A stretch of 52,342 bases of DNA from Candidatus Roizmanbacteria bacterium RIFOXYC1_FULL_41_16 (lineage in GTDB: Bacteria; Patescibacteriota; Microgenomatia; UBA1406), in assembly GCA_001788295.1 (NCBI GenBank), contig MGBO01000010.1:1044-53385 (forward strand). The letters run 5' to 3'. Of this stretch, positions 49,470 to 52,342 are shown piece after piece. Within the stretch, counting starts at the first letter, position 1, and every line of letters begins with the position of its first letter. The notes beneath the pieces were generated by a model. That model had not been told where the DNA came from and searched no databases. It worked only from the letters and a program-made list of their open reading frames with translations. The position numbers and the translations under genes were made by a program.

Positions 49470-49721
49470 TTACCGATAGATTTCTCGCCGATGTTTAATT
49501 TTAAGAATAATAACTTGTTTGTCTTTAAGGTCAAAAACTACTCTATAATTACCAATTCGCCAACGATAAGTACCAAGGGAGGGAGAAATTAATTTTGAAG
49601 CGTATCTTAGCGGATTTTTAATATAGATTTCAATCTTCTTTTTTAGCCTTTTCTTGGTAACGTTATCTAATCTCTGAATGTCTTCTAGAACAGATTCTAC
49701 ATAGAAAATCTGGTAGGTCAT
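49470..49721 (-). CDS. RelE/ParE-family toxin
   Basis: 83 residues of RelE fold: FYVESVLEDIQRLDNVTKKRLKKKI, then LGTYRWRIGNYRVVFDL and a C-terminal IKHRREIYR. The G-x-YRWRIGNYR-V-F and final HRREIY match RelE/RelK-like ribosome-dependent RNases. It lies three bases after the antitoxin gene. Confidence 0.88.
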   Translation of the reverse strand: MTYQIFYVESVLEDIQRLDNVTKKRLKKKIEIYIKNPLRYASKLISPSLGTYRWRIGNYRVVFDLKDKQVIILKIKHRREIYR

Positions 49722-49724
49722 AAA

Positions 49725-49973
49725 TCAAAGTTCTCCGAATACTTCGTCATGAGAAAGAATATTTCTTTTTTTGTATTCGTCACGGGCTTGTTTAATACTC
49801 ATTAAGTATTTTTTATTAGTTAAGGCCAGCAAGTCCTCGAATAAATCAATATTAACAATAGCAGAAGTAATTTTGCCTTTTTTGGCAACAAGCAAATAAT
49901 CTTTTTTAGAAGTAACTTCTTTTAAAGTATCGGCCAAATTGTTTCTGAGTACGGTAGTAGTAACGATATTCAT
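49725..49973 (-). CDS. Phd/YefM-like antitoxin
   Basis: 82 residues from the ATG at 49973 (MNIVTTTVLRNNLADTL...); the longer frame from 49988 would take in the promoter. VLRNNLADTLKEVTSKKDYLLVAKKGKITSAIV is the Phd DNA-binding part; the C-terminal YKKRNILSHDEVFGEL inhibits the toxin. A minus-strand TACAAT (49980-49985) is six bases before the ATG, so the mRNA is leaderless, and the operator at 49984-49998 overlaps that box. Confidence 0.82.
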   Translation of the reverse strand: MNIVTTTVLRNNLADTLKEVTSKKDYLLVAKKGKITSAIVNIDLFEDLLALTNKKYLMSIKQARDEYKKRNILSHDEVFGEL

Positions 49974-49983
49974 GATTAAATTG

Positions 49984-49998
49984 TACATTTGAAATGTA
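49984..49998. promoter_or_regulatory. Antitoxin operator
   Basis: TACATTTGAAATGTA, a 15-base palindrome with 7-base arms and a one-base centre. It overlaps two bases of the TACAAT -10 box of the Phd/RelE operon. Confidence 0.65.
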
Positions 49999-51008: not shown

Positions 51009-51037
51009 TTGACTTATAAGGTCTGTGTTGTTAAACT
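51009..51037 (+). promoter_or_regulatory. Promoter of the T-box leader
   Basis: TTGACT at 51009-51014, a 17-base spacer, TAAACT at 51032-51037; predicted start near 51044. Confidence 0.6.
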
Positions 51038-51043
51038 GTATTT

Positions 51044-51316
51044 AAATACGAAAAGCATTGATGGAGAAATACCCTCCAGAGCTGCCAAGTTGAAATAGTT
51101 AATGACTTAAGTAAATTTGGCCGGACGCGTCCGTAATCACGCAAACGTGTGTCACAGTCGGAAACGGAGCACGCCATAACGAGCTTTTACTTTACCGTTT
51201 GCCCGAGTGATCGGGCCTTTTTTTTGACAAAAAGTAAAAGAAAACAAGGTGGTACCGCCCTTAATAGAGCCCTTGTTAACCAGACACTTTCTGTGTGGTT
51301 AGCAAGGGCTTTTTTT
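51044..51316 (+). ncRNA. T-box riboswitch leader
   Basis: The T-box element AAGGTGGTACCGCC is at 51246-51259. The antiterminator pairs AACAAGG (51243-51249) with CCTTGTT (51271-51277), the T-box bulge between them. A mutually exclusive terminator pairs GCCCTTGTTAACCA (51269-51282) with TGGTTAGCAAGGGC (51296-51309), then seven T. TGGT in the bulge would pair with a tRNA ending A-CCA, arguing against Trp (usually G73). The 5' part (GATGGAGAAATAC, CAGAGC) resembles stem I landmarks, but I could not assign the specifier codon. The 500-base gap from 50934 to 51445 is otherwise this regulatory region. Confidence 0.8.
51201..51225 (+). terminator. Terminator-like hairpin nested inside the T-box leader
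   Basis: GCCCGA (51201-51206), loop GTGA, TCGGGC (51211-51216), then C and eight T. It looks like a complete intrinsic terminator about 20 bases before the T-box sequence. An outer helix CTTTTACTTT (51184-51193) with AAAGTAAAAG (51231-51240) would enclose it. It may be the stem III equivalent, or an additional termination point. Confidence 0.6.
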
Positions 51317-51324
51317 ATAGACAT

Positions 51325-51366
51325 ATGAGAAACAAAAACATACTTAGAAACTATTATTTTCCTTAG
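51325..51366 (+). CDS. Leader peptide with Tyr-Tyr-Phe
   Basis: 13 residues, MRNKNILRNYYFP, ATG at 51325, stop TAG at 51364-51366, immediately after the T-box terminator. Tandem TAT TAT TTT codons (51352-51360) end close to an overlapping pair of hairpins. This layout is that of ribosome-mediated attenuators sensing aromatic tRNA charging. No clear Shine-Dalgarno is seen; the ORF is short and coding is inferred. Confidence 0.5.
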   Translation: MRNKNILRNYYFP

Positions 51367-51369
51367 AGG

Positions 51370-51422
51370 GGCAGATTTTGTGTGTAAAAAACAAAATTTG
51401 CCTCCATAAACGGAGGCTTTTT
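51370..51422 (+). promoter_or_regulatory. Attenuator: alternative hairpin overlapping a terminator
   Basis: GGCAGATTTTGT (51370-51381) can pair with ACAAAATTTGCC (51391-51402), with one mismatch. The terminator GCCTCC (51400-51405)-ATAAAC-GGAGGC (51412-51417) with five T overlaps the first hairpin by three bases, so the two exclude each other. A ribosome at the leader stop would mask the first arm and favour termination; one stalled at the Tyr/Phe codons would leave it free. Confidence 0.6.
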
Positions 51423-51444
51423 ATTAATTATTAAATAAAACAAA

Positions 51445-52342
51445 ATGATAGAAACAATCGATACTAAACGAACAGCGAAAAAAGCTTCTTTTGAAAAGCT
51501 ACATCAATCGCTTTCTGAGACTATATTAAAAAGGATAACCGTCTCTACACACCTAGATAAATTGGGCTTTATTGGTATGATTAATCGTACTAATACGGGA
51601 GCGCTTACTACTACAATCGGTAAGGCACCAACTGAAAAGCCGGTAGTCCGTCATATTCAACCCATTAAAGCTATTGCTAGAAAATTGGCTCAGGAGCGAG
51701 AGGGAATTAAACCTTCAACGCAATTGGAATTTTTGAGAGAGACCGTTCATATTGGAGAAGGAGTCCAGTTAATCAAAGAAACAATTGGGCCGGATTTAAA
51801 GAATCCCGCTGAATGGATGGATGGTTTGTCTTTGTTGCTTGAGGCCGGAGTGCCAGTCGAAAAGATTTTCTTTATTCCTACCGTGAGAGATCCTATTGAT
51901 ACTCTCTCAAGCTGGATGAGAATGTGGAAATGGGATTTGGAGAACTTTCCTTTTAAAGCCTTTAATTTAAGTTTTAATAAAACCTTGGAGGCAGTACAAA
52001 AGGCAGAATCACTTGGAATATTAGTTGTCCCATACGTTCACGAGTTTCTGCGAGACTTTGGTTCAAAGAAGATTCTAGCTAGATTAATGTTGGCTTGTGA
52101 TTTACCCTTTACTCTCTCTATGGTTGAGTGGGACAAAAATGAAGATGCTTACTGGCAAGGTCAGATAGTGAAATACGATGTCCCGCCTACTGAGTTTATC
52201 CATGGAGTTTTAAGCAAAAAACATGGAGGTAGGGGAGGATTAATTTGGTTACCGCCAGAAATAATATTATCTAATGAGCAGGAAATTTTTGTTCGAGAGA
52301 AAATTAAGCCAGCTTTTGAAATCTATGATTTCTTAACCAAAT
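51445..52342 (+). CDS. Sulfotransferase-like protein (3' truncated by window end)
   Basis: About 299 residues, open to the window edge, ATG at 51445. The segment VEKIFFIPTVRDPIDTLSSW (near residues 150-170) resembles the PAPS-binding region of sulfotransferases, where an RDP and downstream Ser/Trp act on the cosubstrate. The N-terminal part (LGFIGMINRTNTGAL) lacks a clear PSB Lys/GTxxT loop, so the family call is tentative. No membrane segment. It is controlled by the T-box and attenuator described above, which is not expected for such an enzyme. Confidence 0.45.
   Translation, partial: MIETIDTKRTAKKASFEKLHQSLSETILKRITVSTHLDKLGFIGMINRTNTGALTTTIGKAPTEKPVVRHIQPIKAIARKLAQEREGIKPSTQLEFLRETVHIGEGVQLIKETIGPDLKNPAEWMDGLSLLLEAGVPVEKIFFIPTVRDPIDTLSSWMRMWKWDLENFPFKAFNLSFNKTLEAVQKAESLGILVVPYVHEFLRDFGSKKILARLMLACDLPFTLSMVEWDKNEDAYWQGQIVKYDVPPTEFIHGVLSKKHGGRGGLIWLPPEIILSNEQEIFVREKIKPAFEIYDFLTK

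Follow-up and report, generated by a model that had tools for sequence, protein, structure and literature searches.

A T-box riboswitch followed by a likely leader-peptide attenuator, ahead of a gene with a predicted sulfotransferase fold in a Candidatus Roizmanbacteria genome

The leader and its gene at the contig end

The window analysed here is the whole 52,342-nucleotide stretch of DNA, which belongs to a 53 kb contig of a 0.9 Mb genome. The leader and gene under study lie at the contig end, where two regulatory modules, a T-box and a leader-peptide attenuator, precede a single open reading frame. The two modules share a contig and lie some 900 bases short of its end; an assembly chimera was considered, without read data. 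Relatives in the same order are Candidatus Roizmanbacteria (Patescibacteria, Microgenomatia-type), in keeping with a preliminary description of the window that had called the genome CPR-like. The features flanking the leader are:

51009..51037, + strand: candidate promoter, TTGACT-N17-TAAACT, its second hexamer preceded by TG (consensus scan), just upstream of the T-box match
51445..52341, + strand: the regulated gene, with a predicted sulfotransferase fold (AlphaFold2 model, Foldseek matches to sulfotransferases, homologs)

The promoter scan is weak evidence by itself, with 3 sites found against 1.6 expected. The open reading frame at 51445 runs for 299 amino acids up to the contig end, which truncates it (probably about 10 amino acids are missing), so that any later operon genes are beyond the available sequence. 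The AlphaFold2 model of its product has a pTM of 0.82, and the top Foldseek matches are all sulfotransferases, with tyrosylprotein sulfotransferase-2 and Teg12 matched at E 3e-4 to 8e-4 and a TM of about 0.4. Searches for a Pfam family match and for a PDB sequence match both returned nothing, and the lone NCBIfam match is weak and far under its cut-off. An RxP...S motif is conserved; this product has a degenerate 5' phosphosulfate loop (NRTNTGA). Assignment as a sulfotransferase is a model-based prediction supported at the level of the fold, with PAPS motifs that are partly degenerate, and it is at this level, without Pfam support, that the preliminary description of a sulfotransferase-like downstream gene held. 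Elsewhere in the window, two small adjoining genes at 49470-49988 resemble, by eye, a RelE/ParE-type toxin and its antitoxin.

Architecture and specificity of the T-box

A sensitive covariance-model scan with Rfam RF00230 gave a full-model match at 51049-51277, spanning model positions 1-219. The score lies below the curated gathering score of 93 bits, and the element is missed by a default scan; in the order, 38 genomes scored positive and none of them reaches 93 bits. The own genome contains no T-box besides this one. The elements of the T-box are as follows:

51049..51277, + strand: T-box riboswitch body, full-model RF00230 match (61 bits, E 7.3e-13)
51054..51083, + strand: ultrashort stem I, with a K-turn-type base AGC...GAGCU and an apical hairpin GGAG-AAAUACC-CUCC (sequence; the hairpin covaries in 6 sequences)
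51070..51072, + strand: specifier codon UAC (Tyr) in the apical loop (invariant AAAUACC loop; tRNA-Tyr gene behind four relatives' copies)
51084..51121, + strand: stem II with S-turn motif GAA/AGUA (RF00230 alignment, fold)
51122..51135, + strand: stem IIA/B (pseudoknot) region CGGACGCGUCCGU, with CGG...UCCGU aligned to the RF00230 model (pseudoknot pairing inferred)
51184..51240, + strand: stem III, with 10-bp outer arms CUUUUACUUU/AAAGUAAAAG around an embedded hairpin (the arms covary in 5 sequences)
51201..51225, + strand: the embedded intrinsic-terminator-like hairpin, GCCCGA-GUGA-UCGGGC and U8 (present in 5/5 Tyr T-boxes and 9/48 T-boxes of the order)
51243..51277, + strand: antiterminator AACAAGG...CCUUGUU with a UGGU bulge complementary to the ACCA end of tRNA-Tyr (sequence, RF00230 alignment)
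51268..51316, + strand: T-box terminator, a long hairpin with U7 (fold, -31.5 kcal/mol)

Positions 51268-51277, the 3' strand of the antiterminator, are common to antiterminator and terminator. The element is a real T-box; binding of tRNA and charging-dependent read-through are inferred. The preliminary description had reported a full T-box with antiterminator and terminator (51243-51316) and had suggested scanning it with RF00230. Its elements are as described and the scan is significant, with a Tyr specifier; the ultrashort stem I, the specifier UAC at 51070-51072 and the hairpin at 51201-51225 had been overlooked. Stem I has no distal AGAGA/UGxRA elbow-binding platform (IDTM), only a 7-nt loop after 4 bp, and we therefore file it as the ultrashort variant.

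Several lines of evidence bear on the amino acid that is read. Six sequences share an unchanged AAAUACC loop (the own genome, G000, together with L006, L013, L017, L022 and L074), and the stems beneath it covary: GGAG/CUCC, AAGGAG/CUCCUU, GACGA/UCGUC, GAGCGG/CCGCUC and GAGCGG/CCGUUC. Directly 3' of the T-box in four Roizmanbacteria relatives (L006, L013, L017 and L022) lies a tRNA-Tyr(GTA) gene with protein genes after it, which in L006 are a HisC-like aminotransferase and then tyrosine--tRNA ligase. Reading the codon from the loop also agrees with the downstream gene elsewhere in the order (GAC with aspartate--tRNA ligase, CCC with proB, CGC with argH), and the 7-nt loops before proB (L029, L049) carry CCC at loop positions 4-6. 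Finally, the genome's own tRNA-Tyr has anticodon GUA and an ACCA end, complementary to UAC and UGGU. From the loop, the tRNA-Tyr linkage, the loop-codon agreement and the own tRNA we conclude that the T-box very probably reads tyrosine, tRNA binding being inferred. The preliminary description had noted that TGGT fits a tRNA with A73 and that both modules point away from Trp, the peptide being rich in Tyr and Phe; these statements held, with UAC for Tyr in the T-box and YYF in the peptide. The UAC is followed by C, whereas the base after a T-box specifier is usually a purine (PMC7583486).

We rejected a role for this T-box in regulating the genome's own tRNA-Tyr or tyrosine-tRNA ligase: those genes are on other contigs (C13 and C21), and the genome has no other T-box. 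The own tRNA-Tyr (L120, on C13 of G000) is 87 nt long with a long variable arm and C1:G72, and it adjoins tRNA-Cys, tRNA-Ser and a serine-recombinase-like gene; the tRNA-Tyr of the Roizmanbacteria T-box operons is 73 nt. In the Tyr T-boxes of L006, L013, L017 and L022, where the tRNA has C1:G72, uncharged tRNA-Tyr apparently controls its own gene.

The hairpin at 51201-51225 is a complete terminator signature nested within the 10-bp arms, upstream of the antiterminator. Both hairpin and arms covary among the Tyr T-boxes, and embedded stem III hairpins with U6-9 occur at the own locus and in L006, L013, L017, L022, L002, L029, L037 and L041. Its role is unexplained; it is conceivable that it acts as a pause site that gives the tRNA time to bind, or as a third checkpoint.

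T-boxes were found in 38 of the 83 genomes of the order, so the preliminary view that one in a CPR-like genome is notable failed for this lineage. Roizmanbacteria-type T-boxes (L003-L050), many with an ultrashort stem I and a transcription terminator, are widespread and stand before proB, proC, argH, a lysW cluster and glycine and aspartate tRNA ligases. At three loci (L015, L023 and L038) a conserved element of about 110 nt, CCCGTCCGAAGC...GCTGCGTGG...GGCGG, follows a Lys or Arg T-box, between the T-box terminator and a lysW-like gene; it is not in Rfam and is possibly another tandem regulator. At a further locus (L003, G055:C13:8188-8561) 12 nt lie between two T-box matches, which makes it a tandem T-box.

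The likely leader-peptide attenuator and the homologs of the gene

The second module occupies the interval between the T-box terminator and the gene, and comprises:

51325..51366, + strand: leader peptide ORF MRNKNILRNYYFP, 13 codons, with UAU UAU UUU at codons 10-12 (sequence, shuffle comparison)
51368..51381, + strand: attenuator region 2, the 5' strand of a 14-bp antiterminator (fold)
51391..51404, + strand: attenuator region 3, which supplies the 3' strand of that antiterminator and overlaps the 5' arm of the terminator (fold; P below 1/3000)
51400..51422, + strand: second terminator, GCCUCC-AUAAAC-GGAGGC-UUUUU (fold, terminator scan)

The leader ATG stands about 8-9 nt past the U-tract of the T-box terminator, and the second terminator ends 22 nt before the gene. 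A separate promoter between T-box and leader ORF was considered and discounted, as none is predicted there and the U-tract and the ATG are only about 8 nt apart. In 3,000 dinucleotide shuffles the 14-bp competing duplex was never reached (maximum 13 bp), and a short ORF containing YY arose in 0.27% (P 0.003). A survey of 148 kb of the own genome gave 106 terminator-like sites, of which only 51400-51422 has a short ORF carrying an aromatic run together with a competing duplex of 11 bp or more. RNA from the leader stop codon onward folds as the 14-bp 2:3 antiterminator (-18.5 kcal/mol); when a further 12 nt past the stop are covered, as by a ribosome, the predicted fold switches to terminator 2. 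The 1:2 protector hairpin is weak. No Shine-Dalgarno site precedes the leader ORF, which is normal here because only 5 of the 33 genes checked within the window have one. Besides its two Tyr codons the peptide has one Phe codon and a final Pro. A weak Rfam Phe_leader match to the leader (E 0.05) was set aside as evidence of homology and treated as convergence. The preliminary description of a 13-codon Tyr-Tyr-Phe ORF and a second terminator with an overlapping alternative hairpin (51370-51422) thus held, and we consider 51325-51422 likely to be a leader-peptide transcription attenuator, translation of the leader and stalling on it being inferred.

Four other close homologs of the gene were found in the class Microgenomatia, in three other genomes, and all of them lie behind leader-peptide attenuators. 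The closest, L139, has the Phe leader MTITRNGFFFFFTS with FFFFF (Rfam Phe_leader, E 0.017), and L136 has a second Phe leader, MNIHQDKKFFFFFNSPTSG. The leader of L134, MTHFKQDSAWWSADTR, carries Trp (Rfam Trp_leader, E 0.006) and the adjoining gene is trpS; at L133 a trpR-family gene precedes the W-containing leader MYKKYFTENCIWQASFGGLSSYGIR, and trpS is behind the sulfotransferase-like gene. In all four, the 5' arm of the terminator has a possible pairing partner within the leader ORF or immediately behind it. The sensed residue thus varies (Trp, Phe, Tyr) and the layout is constant. More distant sulfotransferase homologs (L032, L135, L142 and L145-L148) have no aromatic leader, and the attenuator link is therefore limited to the closer homolog group. 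The association of leader attenuators with the gene family is established by comparison, as are both modules with their alternative structures and the Tyr specifier; since the close homologs are all behind such attenuators, the second switch is likely a trait of the family of the 51445 gene, before which the Tyr T-box stands in the own genome. Upstream of another sulfotransferase-like gene, L141, a possible Ile/Leu-rich leader peptide, MKTGQRLINHTILFLLIRSRGMVVS, precedes a terminator.

A second genome with both modules was not found, a protein search of genome contigs returning no relatives. Searches with Tyr T-box DNA patterns hit only three Roizmanbacteria records, the remaining hits lying within coding regions and looking like chance. 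No close orthologs emerged when the family and order around the homologs were searched, and a homolog of the 51445 gene is absent from the two same-family genomes examined (G081, G082). No ortholog of the 51325 leader ORF was found, and the leader sequence is not conserved in any other genome. The preliminary description had looked to related CPR genomes for the same layout and a conserved YYF ORF; neither the exact tandem nor the ORF was found. What is conserved is the type of attenuator before the gene homologs, with Trp or Phe codons in their leaders.

A proposed two-stage switch, its rivals and known systems

We propose as the likely reading that the leader is a two-stage switch for tyrosine starvation, with two checks of tyrosine charging in series, both acting on transcription. 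In the first stage, tRNA-Tyr would pair through its GUA anticodon with the UAC offered by the ultrashort stem I. An uncharged tRNA-Tyr, with its ACCA on UGGU, would stabilise the antiterminator and let polymerase pass terminator 1, and a charged one would not. In the second stage, a ribosome would start on the newly exposed 13-codon ORF. Stalling at UAU UAU (and then UUU) would leave region 2 free to form the 14-bp 2:3 antiterminator, and the sulfotransferase-like gene would be transcribed. With plentiful charged tRNA-Tyr, the ribosome would reach the stop codon and cover region 2, and terminator 2 would form. The two stages in series would constitute an AND gate on tyrosine charging. The binding of tRNA, the stalling of the ribosome, the AND behaviour and the role of the gene under scarce aromatic amino acids are inferred from sequence alone. 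The preliminary description had suggested a double check on the same or on two amino acids; the double check is supported, and the same amino acid is preferred, as a YYF peptide behind a Tyr T-box is most simply read as two modules sensing one amino acid. A bolder version, which we regard as no more than possible, has three transcription checkpoints (stem III terminator, T-box terminator and Tyr attenuator), none of which opens without tyrosine starvation, before a sulfotransferase-like gene whose family has, within Microgenomatia, gained attenuators for aromatic amino acids time and again.

Several points count against the two-stage Tyr switch. Both modules together were found in no other genome, translation of the leader is unproven, and C stands behind UAC in place of the usual purine. 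The distal elbow platform, reportedly needed by transcriptional T-boxes (PMC7583486), is absent. The peptide also includes Phe and a final Pro, and the hairpin at 51201-51225 might end transcription ahead of either switch.

Among the rival explanations, the one that survives best holds that both modules work on different signals, the T-box sensing Tyr and the peptide sensing Phe or general translation speed, as an aromatic AND gate. This remains possible: codon 12 is Phe, two homologs have Phe-only leaders, and Rfam Phe_leader matches weakly both here (E 0.05) and at the FFFFF leader of L139 (E 0.017). Against it, the T-box is Tyr-specific, and there are two tandem Tyr codons versus one Phe, placed so that a stall frees region 2.

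A second alternative, which we find unlikely, is that the T-box alone regulates, the second hairpin being a back-up terminator and the YYF ORF a chance occurrence or relic. In its favour, the leader ORF lacks a Shine-Dalgarno site, its sequence is conserved in no other genome, and the gene is missing from the two same-family genomes examined. Against it stand the shuffle results, the uniqueness of the site among 106 in the genome, the correct ribosome geometry, and the clear Trp or Phe leader attenuators before four close homologs of the gene. Very unlikely is the converse, that control lies with the leader attenuator and that the T-box is in decay or has been assigned wrongly (for example Ile AUA or Thr ACC from the loop): the sub-threshold Rfam score, the missing purine after UAC and a strict third-to-fifth reading of the 7-nt loop as AUA speak for it, but the specifier hairpin covaries, four genomes have tRNA-Tyr behind the AAAUACC loop, and the 7-nt proB loops (L029, L049) read CCC at positions 4-6.

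The preferred two-stage Tyr switch has partial counterparts in known systems. Its stem I resembles that of the class II (ultrashort stem I) actinobacterial ileS T-boxes, in that a short stem I bears the specifier in its apical loop and stem II has an S-turn; those are translational and read Ile, whereas the T-box at 51049-51277 reads Tyr and leads into a transcription terminator. Transcriptional T-boxes have been associated with a longer stem I, and ultrashort ones are mainly translational (PMC7583486, PMC7778990). Ultrashort stem I T-boxes that end in terminators run against the stated need for an elbow-binding platform. In the open-access literature searched, which leaves out subscription papers, no papers on T-boxes in CPR bacteria were found.

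The second module resembles the E. coli trp, pheA and pheST attenuators (Rfam RF00513, RF01859) in its short ORF, tandem codons and competing antiterminator and terminator, and differs from them in standing behind a T-box, in its weak 1:2 protector and in its sulfotransferase-fold target. An unstudied sulfotransferase-like family tied to Trp, Phe or Tyr scarcity makes the role of that family testable. As in tandem T-boxes, two sensors of tRNA charging stand in series on one leader; here the second would be a ribosome with a peptide and not a T-box.

The closest parallel is the Bacillus subtilis rtpA/yczA (anti-TRAP) leader, in which a Trp T-box is combined with the leader peptide rtpLP (Chen and Yanofsky 2003, 2004, cited in PMC11255114), and where transcription and translation of AT are both induced by uncharged tRNA-Trp (PMC4027176). 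There rtpLP reportedly controls AT translation. Apart from rtpA, we know of no T-box that is joined to a leader peptide for its own amino acid. Both leaders have a T-box and then a leader peptide, for one amino acid, on one transcript. Unlike the rtpA peptide, which acts on translation, the peptide described here faces a second intrinsic transcription terminator, and the leader further differs in reading Tyr instead of Trp, in its ultrashort stem I, in its CPR lineage and in its target gene. T-box and leader peptide have been described as exchanged between lineages, not as both in series (PMC2965389); in the reading we favour, these two charging sensors, usually alternatives between lineages, would be joined as a series switch for one amino acid in a lineage with reduced genomes.
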